Shown one piece after another: positions 2,983-18,472 of a stretch of 30,021 nt of DNA. The translations under genes were made by a program, and so were the position numbers. Under the pieces are notes generated by a model, which saw nothing but the letters and a program-made list of their open reading frames with translations, did not search any database and was not told the DNA's origin. How positions within the stretch are numbered: the first letter of the stretch is position 1; every line of letters starts with the position of its first letter. The stretch lies in IMG/VR virus record IMGVR_UViG_3300044954_000245, positions 1 through 30,021 of that record. One strand, given 5' to 3'. The DNA comes from a virus.

Positions 2983-4008
2983 ATGACATACTCAATCAAC
3001 TACGTACAAAAGCTAAAACAATATCGCAACGCCAACGTTCCCCTGCTCATCTTCGGCGGTCCCGGCATCGGCAAGTCCGAGATCTGCAAGGCGGCAGCCG
3101 ATGGCGACGAGGTCAAAGACGTCCGCCTCTCAATGCTGGAGCCGGTCGACATGCGTGGCATGCCTGTCGTTAATCGTAAGGGCGACGGCACCGAGTTCAG
3201 CGTCGAGTGGGCAAAGCCCGACTTCCTGCCCCGGGATGGCAAGGGCATCATTCTCTTCGACGAGCTGAATACTGCCGACCCCAGCGTCCAGAATGCAGCC
3301 CTGCAGTTCATCTTGGATCGTCGCTGCGGTCCGCACAAGCTAGGCGATGGATGGTGGATTGTTGCCTGCGGCAACAAGTCCAGCCACAAAGCTCACGTCA
3401 ATCCGCTGTCTGCTCCTCTCCGCAATCGCTTTGTGATCCTGGAGATGCAGCCTGATTTCCAACAGTGGCGAAACTGGGCAATGAGCAATTACATCCATGA
3501 GAACGTTCTTGGCTTTATGTCCAGCACCAGTGGGCAACACCTGTACTCCGACCCACAGGACGAGTATGGCAACTTCCCTACTCCTCGTGGCTGGACCATG
3601 GTATCTAATCTGCTCAAGGCAAATATCACTGAGCGTGAGGCTATTGAGGGTGCAATCGGCAGGGGTGCTGCAAACTGGTTTGTGCAGTATTGCAATGAGA
3701 TCAAGGTGATGCCAAACATCGATGACTTGCTGGAAGGCAAGGCCACTTACCAGGATGGTCCCAACAAGCTGTCCATCACCTATGCCGTGGTCAGCAACAT
3801 CCTCTATCGTGCCCTGCGCAATCTAAACATGATCGACAAGGGTGCGGCAGTCATGCTTTCAATTCGCCCCGAGATCGGCTCGCTGTACTTTGGAGGTCTG
3901 CTACAGCAGAAGAACGAAAAGTTTATGATGGCTGTAATGAAATCTCAGAATTCAAAGAACTGGCTCTCCAAGAACCGCAGTCTTCTGGTTCCATTCGAGG
4001 TTGAATAA
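2983..4008 (+). CDS. MoxR-type AAA+ ATPase, 341 aa
   Basis: An AAA+ ATPase of the MoxR clade. Residues 25-32 are a Walker A (GGPGIGKS) and 88-94 a Walker B (GIILFDE) followed by LNTAD. A sensor-1-like ACGN lies near 128, with an arginine-finger-like PLRNRF after it. The length is normal for the family (300-350 aa). MoxR ATPases typically act with a von Willebrand factor A partner as chaperones or remodelling complexes, and the next gene, overlapping by one base, is such a partner. Base composition changes sharply here: the line at 3061 is 39/60 G+C, while 2341 is 20/60, suggesting recent acquisition. Substrate and role in the phage are unknown. Host takeover, virion maturation and defence or counter-defence are all possible. 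Confidence 0.92.
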   Translation: MTYSINYVQKLKQYRNANVPLLIFGGPGIGKSEICKAAADGDEVKDVRLSMLEPVDMRGMPVVNRKGDGTEFSVEWAKPDFLPRDGKGIILFDELNTADPSVQNAALQFILDRRCGPHKLGDGWWIVACGNKSSHKAHVNPLSAPLRNRFVILEMQPDFQQWRNWAMSNYIHENVLGFMSSTSGQHLYSDPQDEYGNFPTPRGWTMVSNLLKANITEREAIEGAIGRGAANWFVQYCNEIKVMPNIDDLLEGKATYQDGPNKLSITYAVVSNILYRALRNLNMIDKGAAVMLSIRPEIGSLYFGGLLQQKNEKFMMAVMKSQNSKNWLSKNRSLLVPFEVE

Positions 4009-5252
4009 TGTCTATTACTCAAATAGATCCAATGCTGCTCCAGTCTGCCAAAAAGAGGCTGGATAGATGTATGTTCCGTATGTTCCAGGACTTTCCGTTC
4101 TGGGCATTTCTGATAGAAAGGTGCAACGTTAAGCTGACCGAGGATGCGAAGAGGGTTCCCACTGCATGCATTGACCGCAAGGGGAACATATACCTCAACC
4201 GAGAGTTCTTCAACTCCCTGTCCGATACCATGATGCATTTTGTGCTGGCACACGAGGTCATGCACATGCTGCTGGACCACCATAGCAGACAAGGCGGACG
4301 CCAGAAATTTCTGTGGAACGTGGCCGGAGATATTCTCATCAATGGGATGCTCGAGGATCACTTTGCAGAGAAGAGTACAAGACTCGATCTGACACCCTAC
4401 ATTACAAGTAGCAGCTTCAGCTTAGAAAATGAAATAGACCACAACACAGCAACCACCGAAGAAGTCTACGATCTGATTCTGAAGAACAATCCTCCCGAGA
4501 AAAAGAAGGAGGATGGCTTGTCGGTAGAAGGCGGCATTCAGGGTGGCACCGACTTGGCAGACTTTGAGCCAGGCGACGATCCTGATGGGGAGAACATTAG
4601 AGCAGCGTCTGAGGGTACTCCGCAGAACGCCAAAGAGTGGGCAGATGCGGGTCTAGAGGCTGCTACACGCAGCCGAATGGCTGGCAACTGTCCGGCATTC
4701 ATGGAGCGGCATATAGACAAACTGCTCAATCCAGAGATTGCCTGGAACGAGGTACTAGCGTACTACCTGCGGAACAAATTCTGCATGAAGAGTAAGAGCC
4801 GGCATACGTTCACTCCACCAAATCGGCGGTATCTGTATCAGGACATGATCCTAACTAGCCGTATTGGCAAAAAGAAGCCCAGCATTGCCTTCTCTGTAGA
4901 CACCTCTGGATCTATGTCCGAGCAAGACATTTCCAAGGGAATTGCCGAAATGGACGCCATTCGTAAGATGTATCGGGTGCCTGTCTATCTGCTGGAGGCG
5001 GACTACACGGTGCATCGAGCAAAGTGGGTTGAGCCAAACGAGGAGATACCTTCGCTCAAGGGCGGAGGTGGAACTTCGTTTGTGCCAGTCATAAATCACT
5101 TAAAGGAAAACAAACCTGACGTAGATGTACTCGTATACTTTACTGACGGCTACGGAGAATTTGGAGAGAATCCGGAATTTGATGTTATTTGGGTCGTAAA
5201 TAGTTCAGTCCAACCACCCTACGGAAAAACAATCCGTATCAACACCGAATAA
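4008..5252 (+). CDS. VWA-domain / HExxH metallopeptidase-like protein, 414 aa
   Basis: Starts on TAATG, overlapping the MoxR stop. The N-terminal half resembles the putative metallopeptidase domain DUF2201. It has a zinc-binding HEVMH at residues 82-86 within a helix (AHEVMHMLLDHH), and His90-His91 may supply a further ligand. A flexible acidic linker covers about 165-215. The C-terminal half is a VWA-like domain with a metal-ion-dependent adhesion site DTSGS at 298-302. A later GGGTSF and a YFTDGYG complete a plausible MIDAS. This two-domain layout next to a MoxR ATPase is a known bacterial pairing. It could be a client adaptor or protease whose access is gated by the ATPase. GC content matches the MoxR gene, so both probably moved together. 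Confidence 0.88.
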   Translation: MSITQIDPMLLQSAKKRLDRCMFRMFQDFPFWAFLIERCNVKLTEDAKRVPTACIDRKGNIYLNREFFNSLSDTMMHFVLAHEVMHMLLDHHSRQGGRQKFLWNVAGDILINGMLEDHFAEKSTRLDLTPYITSSSFSLENEIDHNTATTEEVYDLILKNNPPEKKKEDGLSVEGGIQGGTDLADFEPGDDPDGENIRAASEGTPQNAKEWADAGLEAATRSRMAGNCPAFMERHIDKLLNPEIAWNEVLAYYLRNKFCMKSKSRHTFTPPNRRYLYQDMILTSRIGKKKPSIAFSVDTSGSMSEQDISKGIAEMDAIRKMYRVPVYLLEADYTVHRAKWVEPNEEIPSLKGGGGTSFVPVINHLKENKPDVDVLVYFTDGYGEFGENPEFDVIWVVNSSVQPPYGKTIRINTE

Positions 5253-6834: not shown

Positions 6835-7491
6835 ATGAGCAAAAGCAATCCCCCAAGACCAAACACTAACTCCCCACTTGGGATGAAAGTTGCACGTGGA
6901 TCTGCAGCTAATGAAGTAGTACAGGTAATAGACAACAGTAAAGGTTGGGCTACAGTTGATAATATTCCTGTACCTCCAGTAGCAGAGCACCGCAGCTTTA
7001 AGAAACCTCTAGGCTTAGGCCCAGCACTGATTAATGGGGGTATAATCCCCACAAAAGCGGTATTTAACCCGGAGTTAAAAGAAACGCCAAGGGTCGAACA
7101 ACTAAAAGCAGGCCTTGGGGGAGATTTCCCCCAAGGCCTTTCTTCTACTTCTCAAATCCAGCAAATGCATACACCGGTAAAGAGCGTCTCGGTAGAAGTG
7201 GATTGGTATGGTGCAAAATTATCTCTTAATTGTTTAAATGCCGTATATCAGTCTGCGATCGAGGGTAGGGGGAATCAAGGTTGGATAATGTTAGAAATGA
7301 CTTTAGACGAAAAAACCGGCAATCCCCCATGGATACCTCCTATCGCAGAACTGCAAAAAGATGGTAGAATATTCGTACCAGAATTAAAATGTAAAATAAA
7401 TGGCAAAGTTTTGCGCTGTCAAATACTGAATATTGAGTTATTCGACAAAATAAATAGCAAGTACATAGTGGTGTTCCGAGTGGTAGAATAA
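6835..7491 (+). CDS. Hypothetical protein, 218 aa, with hairpin between its two halves
   Basis: An in-frame TTG lies at 6826, but the ATG at 6835 is the likelier start; both have weak ribosome sites. The first 95 residues are Pro/Gly/Asn-rich and probably flexible. Residues about 112-218 (from PVKSVSVEVDWYGAKLSLN onward) form a compact beta-rich domain. The linker is encoded by a perfect 13-bp hairpin (7110-7139). The protein resembles a tail-accessory or phage structural component in its layout (flexible arm plus beta domain), but I cannot identify it. An alternative is two ancestral genes joined at the hairpin. Confidence 0.7.
   Translation: MSKSNPPRPNTNSPLGMKVARGSAANEVVQVIDNSKGWATVDNIPVPPVAEHRSFKKPLGLGPALINGGIIPTKAVFNPELKETPRVEQLKAGLGGDFPQGLSSTSQIQQMHTPVKSVSVEVDWYGAKLSLNCLNAVYQSAIEGRGNQGWIMLEMTLDEKTGNPPWIPPIAELQKDGRIFVPELKCKINGKVLRCQILNIELFDKINSKYIVVFRVVE
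7110..7139 (+). repeat. Perfect 13-bp hairpin inside a coding sequence
   Basis: AGGCCTTGGGGGA (7110-7122) is exactly complementary to 7127-7139 with a GATT loop. TTCTTCT follows. It looks like a terminator stem but sits in mid-gene, around codon 92-102, and keeps the frame open. Confidence 0.9.
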
Positions 7492-8058: not shown

Positions 8059-9921
8059 ATGCCTGATTTCTCTTCGTCAGCTTTGCAGATGCCTGTTCGT
8101 CGCTCTCTGTCTCATGCAGAGCATGTGCCTAATCCGTTTCTGGACTACGCTTCTCTGCACCTTCCAACCAACCTTAATGAGGCGTTTGAGCTTGCAGAAA
8201 TGATGTACTACAGCAATAGAACTTTTGCTCAGGCCATAGAATATGTGGTTTCATACTTTACCGGCACAGACATCAACATTATTGCCGACGATGAAGAAAA
8301 GGCAAATCAATATAAAAAGTTTCTAATTGAGAAGCTAGACTTAAAGTCCATACTCTTCATGATTGGAAGAGATGTAAAGATATACGGCAATAGCTGCATA
8401 TCAGTACTTGCGCCTTTCAAAAGATTCCTTACTTGCGATAAATGTGGCGCTTCCAAACTCATTCAAAACATCGACTACAAGTTCACGTTAAAAAATGGAT
8501 TCAGCTTTACCTGCGATACCTGCAAAAAACACACCACATGCCTCAATCCTGATGATCGCCCTACGCTGCAGGAAAACGAAATTTATATCAAACGCTGGCC
8601 CATAAAACAAATAAAAATTATATCCCACCAATATGGCGGAAAGCCTGACTACTTCTTTGAGATACCCCAGCAGGATATACAGCAGATACAGTTAGGAAAT
8701 AAAAAGTATCTCGAAAGCATACCCTGGAGTCTGGTGCAGTCTGTGAGATCTAACACTCTGTTTCAGTTCAGTGAAAACATGGTGCACCATTTGTCCGTAG
8801 GCAATCTAAGCGACATCAAGATGGGGACGTGGGGTCTGCCCCCAGTCATTGCAGGATTCAGAGATGCATACCTAGCTCAGATCCTAAAGCGCAACAATGA
8901 AAGCATCGCCCTAGATCACATGCTACCCATCCGCTTAGTAACCCCTACCTCTGTAGGAGCAGGCGGTGACTTTATGAAGTCTGTAAATATCGGCAGCTTT
9001 GGCCAGTCCGTGCTTAGATCCGTGGAAAGAGCCCGCAAAGATCCCACCGGTTGGCAATGGATGCCGATTCCAGTCAACTACCAGTTGCTTGGCGGTGAGG
9101 GCAAGGCTTTTGTTGTACCACAGCTACTGGAACAGGCTCAGGCAGATTTCCTCAACGGCCTAGGTATTCCTGTAGAACTGTACAGAAAAACCCTCAGCGC
9201 TCAAACCGCACCTTTTGCAGCAAGACTTTTTGAAGCAGGAGAAACCCACTTCCTGCACAGTCTGCAGACCTGTCTTACCTGGATAGTCGACAGAATCAGC
9301 GCCATCCTCAACTGGATGCCCTGTGAAGTAAGCTTGACAAAGCCGACCCACGCGGATGACATTGAGCGCCGCATGCTCATGCTACAGATGATGATGCAGG
9401 GCCAGGTCGCAGAACAGGATGTACTCACGCTATTCGGCCTGGACTGGAAAGACACCTTCAAGAAGCGCCAGGCGGAACAAGAGTTCAAAATGCGCGCCGA
9501 GAAGGAATATATGGACAAGATGCGCAAAGCGGAGGAGAACGAGCAGATCATGGCTGCTCCTCCTGGAGCCATAATACCAGGACCAGGCGCTCCGATGGGA
9601 GCCGGCGGAATACCTGGCGGTCCAAACCTCGGAATACCTCCCATGGTGCCTTCCATGCCGATCAACGGCGTTGCAGGACCAATGGCAGCAGGGCCAAGCA
9701 AGGATCTCGACAGCTTCTTTGCCGACGCGCAGGCAAGAGTCAACGAGATCATGGCAACTGCCCCACTTGGCTCTCCACAGCGTAGACAGATCCTTGATCA
9801 GATCAAGGGTCAGGATCCCAATCTGCATGCCGTCGTCAAGAGCATGCTGGATCAAATTACCCAACAGGCGGAAAGCCGAGGCAAAGAGCAGTTACGACAG
9901 CCAATGCCTCCTCCGCAGTAA
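8059..9921 (+). CDS. Phage portal protein, 620 aa
   Basis: The portal forms the dodecameric ring through which DNA enters and leaves the capsid. The length and layout fit T4 gp20-like portals: an N-terminal wing with NLNEAFELAEMMYYSNRTF, a core, then the clip/stem-like part QADFLNGLGIPVELY followed by SAQTAPFAARLFEAGE, and a Gly/Pro/Met-rich flexible C-terminus (about 495-545). GAGGA is upstream (GAGGAATAATATG). An unusual insertion carries two CxxC pairs (C126/C129 and C152/C155, plus C161), probably a zinc ribbon. The GIPVELY segment is encoded by bases that recur exactly at 15326-15350. The call rests on overall resemblance, not on a search. Confidence 0.75.
   Translation: MPDFSSSALQMPVRRSLSHAEHVPNPFLDYASLHLPTNLNEAFELAEMMYYSNRTFAQAIEYVVSYFTGTDINIIADDEEKANQYKKFLIEKLDLKSILFMIGRDVKIYGNSCISVLAPFKRFLTCDKCGASKLIQNIDYKFTLKNGFSFTCDTCKKHTTCLNPDDRPTLQENEIYIKRWPIKQIKIISHQYGGKPDYFFEIPQQDIQQIQLGNKKYLESIPWSLVQSVRSNTLFQFSENMVHHLSVGNLSDIKMGTWGLPPVIAGFRDAYLAQILKRNNESIALDHMLPIRLVTPTSVGAGGDFMKSVNIGSFGQSVLRSVERARKDPTGWQWMPIPVNYQLLGGEGKAFVVPQLLEQAQADFLNGLGIPVELYRKTLSAQTAPFAARLFEAGETHFLHSLQTCLTWIVDRISAILNWMPCEVSLTKPTHADDIERRMLMLQMMMQGQVAEQDVLTLFGLDWKDTFKKRQAEQEFKMRAEKEYMDKMRKAEENEQIMAAPPGAIIPGPGAPMGAGGIPGGPNLGIPPMVPSMPINGVAGPMAAGPSKDLDSFFADAQARVNEIMATAPLGSPQRRQILDQIKGQDPNLHAVVKSMLDQITQQAESRGKEQLRQPMPPPQ
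9161..9185 (+). repeat. 25-nt sequence repeated exactly at 15326-15350
   Basis: Within the portal gene, 25 bases from TAGGTATTCC to CTGTACAG are identical to a stretch of the structured non-coding region. The match ends on both sides with a mismatch. Confidence 0.95.
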
Positions 9922-11065: not shown

Positions 11066-11190
11066 AGCTATTAAATAATTAGGCATAAAAATAACCCCAC
11101 ATTGTGATATACATACATAGAGGCTCTATAGGTATTCCGACAACGTTGTCGGACTGCCAAAACAATATAGACCTCAGAAAGAGAACACAA
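11065..11190 (+). promoter_or_regulatory. Cassette leader copy R2 with conserved spacer
   Basis: TAGCTATTAAATAATTAG (11065-11082) follows the terminator T-run and is repeated at 12059 and 13241. The 104-bp leader (11087-11190) is then nearly identical to R1, with palindrome 11136-11153. Its ribosome site is AGAGAA and it ends at the ATG 11191. Confidence 0.8.
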
Positions 11191-12000
11191 ATGCTTGTGA
11201 AGACATTTAAGTGGGATAAGTGGGATCCCGGTTACCACACAGTTGCGCTCAAGTCGGACGGCACCGTCGTCGCGTGGGGGTACAACGAGTACGGCCAAAC
11301 GAATGTGCCGCAAGATCTGACGGGCGTGGTGCAAGTCGTGGCGGGCGGGTACCACACAGTTGCTGTGAAGTCGGATGGTACTGTTGTGGTGTGGGGGGAC
11401 AACTGCTGCGGCCAAACGACTGTGCCAGAAGGTCTGACGGACGTTGTGCAAGTCGCGGCGGGCTATTTACACACAGTTGCGCTCAAGTCGGACGGCACCG
11501 TTGTTGAGTGGGGCGGGAACGGCATTGGCCAAACCACTGTGCCAGAAGATCTGACGGGCGTGGTGCAAGTCGCGGCGGGCGAGGCACACACAGTTGCTGT
11601 GAAGTCGAATGGTACTGTTGTGGTGTGGGGGGAAAACTACTACGGCCAAACGGATGTGCCAAAAGGCCTGATGGGCGTGGTGCAAGTCGCGGCGGGCTAT
11701 GCACACACAGTTGCGCTCAAGTCGGACGGCACAGTCGTATGTTGGGGGGACAACTGTCTTCCCCAAACGGATGTGCCAGATGGCCTGACGGACGTTGTGC
11801 AAGTCGCGGCGGGCTATTTACACACAGTTGCGCTCAAGTCGGACGGCACCGTCGTATGTTGGGGGGACAACGGCTGGGGCCAAACCACTGTGCCAGAAGA
11901 TCTGACGGGCGTGGTGGAAGTCTCAGCGGGCGAGGAGCACACAGTTGCCCGGAAGCAGGACGGCACCGTTGTTGCGTGGGGAAGAGTCCCCGCGAACTAA
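11191..12000 (+). CDS. Cassette B: RCC1-type seven-repeat beta-propeller, 269 aa
   Basis: Built almost entirely of 39-residue RCC1-like repeats. The motif HTVAxKSDGTVVxWGxN begins at residues 16, 55, 94, 133, 172, 211 and 250, so seven blades are expected, the classic propeller number, with the last blade closed by an N-terminal strand. There is no signal peptide or membrane segment. RCC1 propellers bind proteins or chromatin in eukaryotes and serve as binding scaffolds in bacteria. Repeat variation is confined to the residues before HTVA, those between WG and Q, and those around VP. The DNA repeats are near-identical. The ATG at 11191 follows AGAGAA in the shared leader. Likely a protein-binding cargo or effector, target unknown. 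A tail adhesin role is less likely, given the isolated promoter. Confidence 0.9.
   Translation: MLVKTFKWDKWDPGYHTVALKSDGTVVAWGYNEYGQTNVPQDLTGVVQVVAGGYHTVAVKSDGTVVVWGDNCCGQTTVPEGLTDVVQVAAGYLHTVALKSDGTVVEWGGNGIGQTTVPEDLTGVVQVAAGEAHTVAVKSNGTVVVWGENYYGQTDVPKGLMGVVQVAAGYAHTVALKSDGTVVCWGDNCLPQTDVPDGLTDVVQVAAGYLHTVALKSDGTVVCWGDNGWGQTTVPEDLTGVVEVSAGEEHTVARKQDGTVVAWGRVPAN
11236..11997 (+). repeat. Tandem 117-bp repeats encoding RCC1 blades (gene B)
   Basis: Seven units of 117 bp (the last one partial). Two synonymous versions of the SDGTVV codons alternate: GGACGGCACCGTCGT and GGATGGTACTGTTGT. Both versions are also present in gene C, showing mosaic ancestry of the units. Confidence 0.9.
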
Positions 12001-12028
12001 CTGAGTACGCCCAGCCCGGCGTGCTCAG

Positions 12029-12059
12029 ACCTGAGTACTCCGACGTACTCAGGTTTTTT
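12029..12059 (+). terminator. Terminator of cassette B
   Basis: A 10-bp stem ACCTGAGTAC/GTACTCAGGT with loop TCCGAC, then six T. The hairpin is nearly the same as that of cassette C (loop TCCAAC), so the terminators were duplicated along with the genes. Confidence 0.92.
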
Positions 12060-12182
12060 AGCTATTAAATAATTAGACTAAAAATAGCCTCATATTGAGT
12101 CATTATATAAAGAGGTCCTATAGGTATTCCGACAACGTTGTCGGACCGCCAAAACAATATAGACCTTAGAAAGAGGACACAA
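12059..12182 (+). promoter_or_regulatory. Cassette leader copy R3 (most diverged)
   Basis: The conserved TAGCTATTAAATAATTAG spacer comes first, then a 103-bp leader (12080-12182). The promoter-like part differs most here (AAAAATAGCCTCATATTGAGTC and TATATAAAGAGG), while the 18-bp palindrome (12128-12145) and ribosome site AGAGGA are unchanged. Retention of the palindrome indicates selection on it. Confidence 0.78.
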
Positions 12183-13118
12183 ATGGAGGCATCTAGCGAA
12201 CTCGTCGATTCCACAAGTATTTTGCAAATTGAGCCGGGCCGTGGATACATAGTTGCGCTCAAGTCGGATGGTACTGTTGTGGCGTGGGGGGCCAACAACG
12301 ACCGCCAATGCAATGTGCCAAAAGGTCTGACGGGCGTGGTGCAAGTCTCGGTGGGCGCTTACCACACAGTTGCGTTGAGGTCGGACGGCACCGTTGTTGC
12401 GTGGGGGTACAACGGCTACGGCCAAACAGATGTGCCAAAAGGCCTGACGGGCGTGGTGCAAGTCTCGGCGGGCTATGTACACACAGTTGCGCTCAAGTCG
12501 GATGGTACTGTTGTGGCGTGGGGGCTGAACGACTACGGCCAAACAGATGTGCCATCAAATCTCACGGGCGTGGTGCAAGTCTCATCGGGCGCGTACCACA
12601 CAGTTGCGTTGAGGTCGAACGGTACTGTTGTGGCATGGGGTGACTACAAGTACCACCAATGCAATGTGCCAGAAGATCTGACTGACGTGGTGCAAGTCGC
12701 GGCGGGCGCTAACCACACAGTTGCGCTCAAGTCGGACGGCACCGTCGTCGCGTGGGGGTGGAACGGCAGCGGCCAAACGAATGTGCCAGAAGATCTGACT
12801 GACGTGGTGCGGGTCGCGGCGTGCCGTTTTCGCACAGCTGCCCGGCTGGCGAACGGCACCGTCGTCTCGTGGGGTGCGCCGGTTAAAGGTTCTTCTTCTT
12901 CTCAGGAAGCGGCGGATTTTTCTCTTGCCATTTTTGGCTTGCTTTCTTCTCATTCCCCCTTGCAAAATGTTCCAAAAGGGAGCATACTATGCCCTTTATG
13001 TAATAAGGGACATATGCCCTTTAAGGACATAGGGGGAGAAGTTGAACGAATCGAGGGCGTTATTGGCAAGTATGCAGCGAAGCGGCTCCTGGATTGGTGC
13101 AAGGTTGTGCCATGGTAG
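12183..13118 (+). CDS. Cassette C: RCC1-type beta-propeller with CxxC tail, 311 aa
   Basis: Six RCC1-like 39-residue repeats begin at residues 22, 61, 100, 139, 178 and 217; the first and last are diverged (GYIVALKSDG and RTAARLANG). An unrelated C-terminal extension of about 75 residues follows. It is Ser-rich first (SSSSQEAADF), then has a hydrophobic stretch, CPLC, and a helical end (GEVERIEGVIGKYAAKRLL). CPLCNKGHMPF could be half of a zinc site. The gene is the sister of B: same leader, near-identical terminator, shared repeat DNA. The extension and the missing seventh blade suggest a different partner or an open ring. Start fixed by the shared leader. Confidence 0.88.
   Translation: MEASSELVDSTSILQIEPGRGYIVALKSDGTVVAWGANNDRQCNVPKGLTGVVQVSVGAYHTVALRSDGTVVAWGYNGYGQTDVPKGLTGVVQVSAGYVHTVALKSDGTVVAWGLNDYGQTDVPSNLTGVVQVSSGAYHTVALRSNGTVVAWGDYKYHQCNVPEDLTDVVQVAAGANHTVALKSDGTVVAWGWNGSGQTNVPEDLTDVVRVAACRFRTAARLANGTVVSWGAPVKGSSSSQEAADFSLAIFGLLSSHSPLQNVPKGSILCPLCNKGHMPFKDIGGEVERIEGVIGKYAAKRLLDWCKVVPW
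12246..12870 (+). repeat. Tandem 117-bp repeats encoding RCC1 blades (gene C)
   Basis: Six units in phase with the coding frame, closely related to those in gene B. The reading frames on the opposite strand and in the +2 frame here are also open because the unit length is a multiple of three. Confidence 0.88.
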
Positions 13119-15024: not shown

Positions 15025-15222
15025 ATGGGACGGAGAAAAAAAGAAAATTGCTTTCCATACAAAGATATAGTTGTATCAACATACATTAAAAGCCAAGATT
15101 ATCAGAAAGCTCAGCTTCAATATTCAAATAATATCAGTACTGATCCTACCATTGACTTAAATAGTGTAGACGACTTTATAGATGCCGATATGGAGGACTT
15201 TAACAAGGACGAAAGCTACTAA
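15025..15222 (+). CDS. Small acidic protein, 65 aa
   Basis: ATG at 15025 with only a poor upstream site (GGTATTACATAA). It has a basic N-terminus (MGRRKKE) and a strongly acidic C-terminal half (VDDFIDADMEDFNKDESY). This polarity is common in small DNA-mimic or adaptor proteins of phages, but nothing specific can be claimed. It ends where the structured non-coding region starts. Confidence 0.6.
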   Translation: MGRRKKENCFPYKDIVVSTYIKSQDYQKAQLQYSNNISTDPTIDLNSVDDFIDADMEDFNKDESY

Positions 15223-15325
15223 AATATCCCCATATATAAGGTAATATTATATAATCCTCTTTAGTAGCCTTCAGAGGACTGCAAACACCAACTCGACTAT
15301 GCGAGTATAAATAGGGTTATAAGCA

Positions 15326-15350
15326 TAGGTATTCCTGTAGAACTGTACAG
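15326..15350 (+). repeat. Exact 25-nt copy of portal gene sequence
   Basis: Identical to 9161-9185. Its last part makes up the left half of the palindrome at 15338-15355, so only one arm of the hairpin matches the portal gene. Confidence 0.95.
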
Positions 15351-15355
15351 TTCTA
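15338..15355 (+). repeat. 18-bp perfect palindrome (TAGGTATTCC context)
   Basis: TAGAACTGTACAGTTCTA is a perfect palindrome placed shortly after TAGGTATTCC, where the four cassette leaders have their unrelated palindrome immediately after TAGGTATT. The sequence differs and the symmetry and length are kept. Confidence 0.85.
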
Positions 15356-15404
15356 TAGGCGGCGTTTCATGTATATCCGTTTATACATGGAGGAACCAGA
15401 GTAT

Positions 15405-15460
15405 CCTTCAAGTTAATTTAGTGGAAGTGAAACACCCGCTAATAGACTGTTTCATGAAGG
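15405..15460 (+). other. Pseudoknot enclosed by a helix
   Basis: TAGTGG (15419-15424) pairs with CCGCTA (15436-15441, one G-U). TGAAACA (15428-15434) pairs with TGTTTCA (15448-15454). The two helices interleave with loops of 3, 1 and 6 bases, an H-type pseudoknot geometry. CCTTCA (15405-15410) and TGAAGG (15455-15460) close the unit. Confidence 0.55.
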
Positions 15461-15523
15461 TATCTCCCTTGATCAAAGGATCTGACCCCGACTTTGATCT
15501 CTGTAATATAGTGGGTTAGCGCG

Positions 15524-15558
15524 GTATCTACAGGTGAAATACCCTGTAGGTACTTTTT
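15524..15558 (+). terminator. Terminator-like stem, family-2 copy 1
   Basis: GTATCTACAGG/CCTGTAGGTAC, 11 pairs (one G-U), loop TGAAATAC, then five T. Two related copies follow at 15898 and 16685. Confidence 0.85.
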
Positions 15559-15574
15559 CATTCTCCCAGGTGTC

Positions 15575-15605
15575 AAGTAAGAGGATTGTTATTTTCTTAC
15601 TTGGT
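15575..15605 (+). repeat. Hairpin family-3 copy 1
   Basis: AAGTAAGA/TCTTACTT with an inner GGATTGTTATTT, followed by GGTATCTC. A diverged copy (17122-17149) keeps the pairing through a G-U pair. Confidence 0.75.
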
Positions 15606-15637
15606 ATCTCTAATAATCGTAAGCGGTTATTAGAGAT
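15606..15637 (+). repeat. 14-bp stem with TAAG loop
   Basis: ATCTCTAATAATCG pairs with CGGTTATTAGAGAT across all 14 positions (one G-U). It is the strongest helix of the region and has no T-run behind it, so it is not a terminator. Confidence 0.85.
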
Positions 15638-15814
15638 GTCAAGAAGACACACGATTATTCGACATGCCATTTTAGGATGGCTAAAGGAGATAAAATACCA
15701 GGAGGGATGTCAACTACGACGGTAGAAGACTATCCTTTAGGGAAGATAATCTCTGAGTCGGAAAACTAGCACTTTTTGAGTGTGGATGTGGCTGGTCTAT
15801 TTAAAACACTCAGG

Positions 15815-15880
15815 ACCCCTCTAGCCTAAACTAGGGGGGTATCCTTTAGCATCACCTTATTAGGTGATCCCAAAGGATAC
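15815..15880 (+). repeat. Two successive strong hairpins
   Basis: ACCCCTCTAG/CTAGGGGGGT (10 pairs, one G-U, loop CCTAAA, 15815-15840). It is followed by GTATCCTTT/AAAGGATAC (9 pairs, 15839-15880) enclosing ATCACCT/AGGTGAT with a TATT loop. Two bases are shared, so the helices compete slightly or stack. Confidence 0.85.
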
Positions 15881-15897
15881 AAAAGTGAGTCAGGTCA

Positions 15898-15958
15898 GTA
15901 TCTATAGATGAAATACCCTGTAGGTACTTTTTTTATCTGTTGTCTATGTTGACAATAG
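15898..15958 (+). promoter_or_regulatory. Family-2 leader: terminator-like stem plus 8-bp hairpin (copy 2)
   Basis: GTATCTATAG/CTGTAGGTAC (10 pairs, three G-U) is followed by seven T (15928-15934), then CTGTTGTC/GACAATAG (15937-15958). The arrangement recurs at 16685-16737 with compensating changes. It precedes the 65-aa gene by 40 bases. Confidence 0.7.
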
Positions 15959-15997
15959 ATTGTTCAGTCCTTCTTTAGGAGAAAAGGAATAATTACT

Positions 15998-16198
15998 ATG
16001 GATTGGACTACTATCGCTAAACAAACGAGGGAGCATTATGCTTCACTTTGGTTTCTGCTTGACCTTGAACAAACGAGGGAACATTGTCGTGAACTAAGAG
16101 AAGAAAACCTAAAACTAAAGGGTCGGCTTTATGAATTGGAGGCTCTACTTCGGGATAAGGCCGAAACAAGTGTAGATGAGGGGGTAAAGCCTACCTAG
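15998..16198 (+). CDS. Short coiled-coil protein, 66 aa
   Basis: ATG with AAGGAA nine bases upstream. An internal duplication, KQTREHYASL and EQTREHCREL, is visible also in the DNA (ACAAACGAGGGAGCAT and ACAAACGAGGGAACAT). Residues about 25-55 (TREHCRELREENLKLKGRLYELEALL) have leucine/hydrophobic heptad spacing like a leucine zipper. It probably dimerises. The leader carries the family-2 hairpins, and the tRNA begins eight bases after the stop codon. Function unknown. Confidence 0.65.
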   Translation: MDWTTIAKQTREHYASLWFLLDLEQTREHCRELREENLKLKGRLYELEALLRDKAETSVDEGVKPT

Positions 16199-16206
16199 CC
16201 GCATTA

Positions 16207-16280
16207 GGGCTGGTAGCTCAGCGGTCTAGAGCCGTCGACTCATAATCGACATGGCGTGGGTTCGAATCCCACCCGGCCCA
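16207..16280 (+). tRNA. tRNA with CAU anticodon (elongator Met or Ile2)
   Basis: A complete cloverleaf of 74 bases: acceptor GGGCTGG/CCGGCCC (one G-U), D arm GCTC/GAGC, anticodon stem GTCGA/TCGAC with loop CTCATAA (anticodon CAT), variable region ATGGC, T arm GTGGG/CCCAC with TTCGAAT. The discriminator is A, and CCA is not encoded. Position 1-72 is a G-C pair and the anticodon stem lacks three G-C pairs, so it is not a bacterial initiator. Whether it is elongator Met or lysidine-modified Ile2 cannot be settled from the anticodon. It follows a structured non-coding region. Confidence 0.95.
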
Positions 16281-16297
16281 CTATAAGGATATCACCA

Positions 16298-16684: not shown

Positions 16685-16737
16685 TCTACAGAAAGAAACT
16701 CTTGTAGATACTTTTCTATTGTCTCTGTTGACAATAG
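16685..16737 (+). promoter_or_regulatory. Family-2 leader copy 3
   Basis: TCTACA/TGTAGA (16685-16708) then TACTTTT, followed by CTATTGTC/GACAATAG (16716-16737, 8 perfect pairs, loop TCTGTT). It is followed by ATTGTTCGGT (ATTGTTCAGT in copy 2) and an AAGGAG site before the ATG at 16768. Confidence 0.7.
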
Positions 16738-16767
16738 ATTGTTCGGTAACCATTTAAGGAGATTTCT

Positions 16768-17951: not shown

Positions 17952-18046
17952 TTTTCTTAATCCAAATCTTCTAGATGTTTGAGATTTGGGTTTTCACCTG
18001 CCGGACGTTCCTGCAGGTAGTTTCAGGCAAAAAGGAGATAAATGCA

Positions 18047-18472
18047 ATGAGATCTGCTGTAAGATTTGTCGTGGCGATGATGCTATATGTCGCCGCCCCC
18101 ACTTCTGCCCAGGCTCAAACCTGGGACAGCTTTCTGAATGCAATTCAGAAGGTAGAAACGGGATCCCAAAAGGATCCCAACAATGCTGTTGGAGATAACG
18201 GCAAGGCCTTGGGTGCGTACCAGATTTGGTACTCATACTGGCTCGATGCCGTCGAGCATCACCCCGAGCTCAAGGCTTGTGGCTATGAAGCAGTGCGTGA
18301 TCCTGCTTATGCCAGAGCCATTGTCATGGCCTACATGGCCCGCTATGCCCCCAAGGACGCCACTTGGGAGAATCTGGCTCGGATACACAATGGCGGACCC
18401 AAGGGCTACCGAAAGGCCGCTACGGCCAAGTACTGGACCAAGGTTCAGACAGCACTGAAAGAGGCAGAATAA
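18047..18472 (+). CDS. Secreted lysozyme/transglycosylase-like endolysin, 141 aa
   Basis: It would cleave host peptidoglycan. Residues 1-23 are a Sec signal peptide (VAMMLYVAAPTSAQA, likely cut after Ala23). The mature domain has a lysozyme-like plan: catalytic Glu candidate E37 in QKVETGS, GAYQI (cf. the GxxQI of SLT-type enzymes), and a later IHNGGPKGYRKAA (cf. YNGG). The start is the second of two ATGs (18047); the first (18042) opens a two-codon frame ATG-CAA-TGA directly overlapping it, which could modulate translation. AAAGGAG lies upstream. A lysozyme-type endolysin with an export signal may be released by a pinholin or act without a holin. The stop overlaps the next start. Confidence 0.8.
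   Translation: MRSAVRFVVAMMLYVAAPTSAQAQTWDSFLNAIQKVETGSQKDPNNAVGDNGKALGAYQIWYSYWLDAVEHHPELKACGYEAVRDPAYARAIVMAYMARYAPKDATWENLARIHNGGPKGYRKAATAKYWTKVQTALKEAE

Follow-up and report, generated by a model that had tools for sequence, protein, structure and literature searches.

A relative of the Pistol ribozyme heads a pseudoknotted noncoding RNA in a virus record and in other phages, a candidate ribozyme-released small RNA

The window considered here is a whole stretch of viral DNA, the 30,021-base record IMGVR_UViG_3300044954_000245 (positions 1–30,021). Three of its proteins were compared with those of named phages and show identities of ca. 24–40%, and similarity to named phages at the DNA level is confined to the tRNA. 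A 65-residue open reading frame (ORF, 15025–15222) and a 66-residue ORF (15998–16198) flank a noncoding stretch, downstream of which lies a tRNA with the anticodon CAU (16207–16281, + strand), outside the RNA described below and the sole match in the window at Rfam gathering scores. Elsewhere in the window, two adjacent ORFs (11104–13118) are rich in RCC1-type beta-propeller repeats and an ORF at 17975–18472 carries a Destabilase (lysozyme-type) domain (E 2.5e-9). A 36-nt repeat containing TTGACAATAGATTGTTC occurs at 15933–15968 and 16712–16747 with 89% identity; each copy follows a terminator-like stem and stands just before a gene start, and the repeat is an intergenic cassette.

A preliminary description had taken positions 15223–15934 for one structured RNA of about 710 bases lacking any credible gene. 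Structure is well borne out, with a minimum free energy of -242.1 kcal/mol against -183.9 ± 8.8 for shuffled sequences (z -6.6, reached by 0 of 20 shuffles). The two ORFs longer than 60 residues (15534–15725 on the + strand and 15473–15670 on the − strand) are not preserved in the closest homologue, where the start or the frame is lost, and no conserved reading frame was found across homologues of the stretch, in agreement with its noncoding nature. The 14-bp stem with a tetraloop (15606–15637), the H-type pseudoknot inside its own helix (15405–15460) and the two terminator stems (15523–15558 and 15898–15934) that had been pointed out are all present. The single long RNA had to be given up, because the internal terminator at 15523–15558 divides the stretch into two units, RNA1 and RNA2, the first of which is also met at other loci that lack the second. 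The start is placed near 15291 rather than at 15223, since homology with L029, a contig carrying a related RNA, begins at 15289.

The 5′ end of RNA1 (15291–15558) is identified, from its Rfam score and its alignment with canonical members, as a relative of the Pistol self-cleaving ribozyme (RF02679) spanning 15291–15397 on the + strand, as are all RNA features below. At a relaxed threshold the Pistol model matches 15291–15334 with 25.7 bits, below the cut-off of 34.5, and with an E-value of 1.6e-4 when the search is limited to the Pistol family and the window record. P1 (15291–15306; ACUCG/CGAGU) is followed by the junction AUAAAUA (15307–15313), and its loop pairs at 5 of 6 positions with the pseudoknot strand CAUAG (15324–15328); further on lie the GCG (15362–15364) and P3 (15365–15375/15382–15392). 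By inspection, P2 (ca. 15314–15317/15394–15397) appears to comprise 3–4 pairs, GGU(U)/(A)ACC, and the predicted cut falls near 15393|15394, at a G|A junction. The bases that matter in Pistol, A32, G33, G40, C41 and G42 (PMC6154101), can likewise be located by inspection, split by an insert.

This insert, a 32-nt hairpin (15329–15360) common to the window and L029 only, separates the CAUAG strand from the GCG, unlike in all other aligned Pistols, and for this reason the element is termed a Pistol relative rather than a canonical Pistol. L037 is the sole other Pistol-pattern locus with an insert at this point of the core, of sequence unrelated to that of the window; most other loci flagged for an insert reflect G-U slippage in the detecting script. 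Over 28 bases, 15323–15350 is 96% identical to 9158–9185 within the ORF at 8059–9921, part of the insert matching this gene without a difference, and the insert looks like a copy from the phage's own gene that then became palindromic. With its core interrupted and its score below the cut-off, the window copy may not cut. A search of bacterial genomes for the exact Pistol core of the window sequence gave no match. A second Pistol-like copy at another locus (L067, 14056; 32.1 bits) has UACA in place of GCG and is probably inactive.

Past the ribozyme, and thus outside the Pistol model, RNA1 reads as a pseudoknotted RNA of ca. 165 nt with its own terminator (15523–15558). The first pseudoknot, PK1 (15405–15460), is enclosed by a helix (15405–15410/15455–15460) and built from S1 (15418–15424/15436–15442) and S2 (15427–15433/15449–15455). 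The sequence of S1 varies among lineages and the spacing of its pairing is identical in the window, L102, L070 and L107, and nearly so in L125, with a shuffle p of ca. 0.01 each; L007 forms 5 pairs (p 0.15). As MAFFT shifts S1 by one base where stem length differs, the stem was tallied on a trimmed alignment. There, 91.5% of cells are paired versus 61% in shuffles, and the covariation score is 0.871 versus 0.265, a value reached by 0 of 500 shuffles and abolished when the partner strand is slid. Both sides change in 6 of 7 pairs, a less unusual count that 47 of 500 shuffles equal. S2 (UGAAAC/GUUUCA) is invariant on both strands, so that conservation, not covariation, speaks for it.

The hairpin H3 (15471–15499) is completely paired in all ten members checked, and its loop (15482–15488) pairs with a strand close to the terminator (15513–15519) to form PK2; the pairing is present in every lineage, the partners being AUCCUU/AAGGAU in L102, AGGUCU/AGACCU in L070 and AGGGUC/GACCUU in L007; single-lineage shuffle tests of PK2 give p values of 0.02–0.2, several of them weak. 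S1, H3 and PK2 are intact in both the window and L029. A first model of the RNA (R1) scores its own members at 89–109 bits and the L007/L057 lineage, which was left out of it, at 24.6–26.9 bits. A second (R2), made without the window and L029, recovers the window (E 0.0006), L029 (0.0037) and L057 (0.0032), these E-values being rough, and did not report L007. No Rfam family matches RNA1 beyond its Pistol part, and it is for this part that the earlier suggestion of a possible new class holds; a literature search, largely of non-subscription papers, returned no described Pistol-associated RNA.

By sequence, the unit of Pistol plus pseudoknot is recognisable in at least six phage lineages. The phosphoesterase gene upstream of the stretch, used as bait, returned 24 loci. 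In L007, L008 and L013 a Pistol scoring 53.6 bits, above the cut-off, sits at the syntenic place, and L008 repeats the order of the window, namely phosphoesterase, small ORF, noncoding stretch and CAU tRNA. Near its Pistol, L008 also holds three dispersed hairpins, CCCACAnAGATCGnCnGGTCTGnGTGGG, at 7246, 7443 and 7552, resembling the P3 hairpin of several Pistols. L006 and L014, which have the phosphoesterase and a downstream CAU tRNA, gave no Pistol match, so that the RNA is variably present at this site. L029 contains a homologue of almost the entire RNA (85–92% identity piecewise), whose start coincides with the Pistol and whose second half, RNA2, recurs in tandem as far as the end of the contig.

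Searches independent of this gene gave the same arrangement. More than 100 viral stretches matched a Pistol-core pattern, several of them continuing after the ribozyme with a helix, S1, UGAAAC, the S1 partner, GUUUCA and a helix. A pattern of PK1 by itself matched 13 stretches. Wherever the match falls in noncoding, structured DNA, as in the newly found L149 and L150, it is preceded at a short distance by a Pistol; the remaining matches resemble coding DNA and have none. A pattern of the RNA1 3′ end added L158, also with a Pistol (60.7 bits). When 22 whole records were searched, all 12 with an R1 match also matched the Pistol model, upstream and in the same orientation, the weakest (L033, 20.6 bits) with its Pistol ca. 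120 nt further off than in the others. In every clear carrier the Pistol directly precedes the pseudoknot RNA. L096, L103 and L106 combine a Pistol with an L102-like 3′ end, differ in the middle and match neither model; they are possibly distant relatives at most. The folding z-scores of the stretches after each Pistol were given no weight, because they were derived from simple letter shuffles and did not separate carriers from the others.

Behind RNA1, RNA2 (ca. 15564–15934) is a separate, hairpin-rich structured RNA, with a folding z of -7.7 (-9.3 for its L029 homologue). It comprises hairpins at 15574–15603, 15606–15637, 15666–15681, 15705–15735, 15815–15840 and 15839–15880, a possible second H-type pseudoknot (15765–15812) and a terminator (15898–15934), and its final 49 bases copy the end of RNA1 at 86% identity. 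The last hairpin shows three double compensatory changes relative to L029, its innermost pair having been flagged as broken through a trimming artefact; together with S1, this supplies the covarying helices that the preliminary description had named as support. Two exact patterns for RNA2 relatives found L029's contig only. The pseudoknotted phage RNA manA (RF01745) was considered as its identity and rejected, with no match in 15560–15960 at E up to 10. In L107 the neighbour immediately behind RNA1 is a manA-like RNA (3926–4102; 38.8 bits, below the cut-off of 55.2), and a LOOT match in the same locus (22.6 bits, cut-off 46.4) was judged to be chance. The group I intron, also raised earlier, gave no match in the window, though the identical search found one in L027.

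A large RNA of the GOLLD or ROOL type assembling into a particle, the type first considered, is now very improbable. The resemblance is that of structured, noncoding phage RNAs often adjacent to tRNA genes, and the published GOLLD env-38 sits downstream of a Met tRNA (PMC12286853). GOLLD and ROOL are, however, hundreds of nucleotides longer and of other structure (PMC12286853); among 4227 Rfam models neither matched the window at gathering scores or with the E-value limit raised to 5 or 10, and in place of one RNA of ca. 600–900 nt there are two terminated units, of which RNA1 measures only ca. 165 nt after the predicted cut and occurs without RNA2. The CAU tRNA does lie downstream, as had been noted, but the meaning given to it is not borne out, such a tRNA being absent from most other carriers in the DNA examined; its adjacency is local synteny. 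The same absence counts against a role in cis, in which the Pistol and the pseudoknots would process or regulate a transcript running into the gene at 15998–16198 and the tRNA. Many phage Pistols directly precede genes, which lends this explanation some weight, yet RNA1 closes with its own terminator and the downstream genes vary among carriers by inspection, so we hold it to be unlikely. The plainest case of Pistols before genes is L135 (3360–8574; IMGVR_UViG_3300042922_000923, 120440–125654), where eight, at 53.8–68.3 bits and above the cut-off, stand on one strand within 5.2 kb, each ca. 30 nt ahead of an ORF start, apparently an operon with a ribozyme before each of its eight genes.

Somewhat less likely again is that in the window phage the RNA is a decaying or selfish element, hopping between intergenic sites and of no function for the phage. 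The ribozyme core broken by sequence that a gene of the phage itself also contains, the tandem duplication of RNA2 in L029 and the presence or absence at one site across related phages all fit such an element, while the compensatory changes in RNA2 and the intact S1, H3 and PK2 of the window and L029 argue against it. A trans-acting RNA released by the ribozyme is favoured over these explanations, at a probability of roughly 0.6, because of the canonical Pistols at syntenic places, the constant order of Pistol and pseudoknot, the covariation and spacing of S1, the H3/PK2 pairing, the matches to the held-out model R2, the closing terminator and the lack of a conserved frame. It is weakened by the interrupted, sub-cut-off Pistol, the invariance of S2 and the weak single tests of PK2.

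According to this favoured reading, the ribozyme would cut its own transcript near 15393|15394, leaving a product whose 5′-OH end would soon be closed by the enclosed pseudoknot and whose 3′ end would be set by the RNA1 terminator. The released RNA would be a stable, pseudoknot-capped small RNA of the phage, active in trans in the course of infection; its partner, a protein or an RNA, may be bound through the sequence-conserved UGAAAC/GUUUCA element. The chances are about even that it represents a class of small phage RNAs not described before, in which a built-in Pistol generates the 5′ end and an enclosed H-type pseudoknot shields it. A related system is that of the theta ribozymes, self-cleaving RNAs of gut phages found near tRNA genes and proposed to act in RNA maturation (PMC10879173). 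These are of an HDV-like class and are proposed for tRNA 3′ trailers (PMC10879173), whereas the ribozyme of the window stands at the head of a pseudoknot RNA, and its tRNA neighbour is not a constant one.

To our knowledge, the role of Pistol ribozymes in phages is not established. The conserved RNA downstream of the ribozyme, which has pseudoknots and a terminator of its own, is a concrete candidate for its product, a ribozyme-matured small RNA, and such a class, if real, would supply phage Pistol ribozymes with a biological product. Interruption of the core, seen in the window and, as a separate event, in L037, offers in addition a natural test of how much the Pistol active site tolerates.
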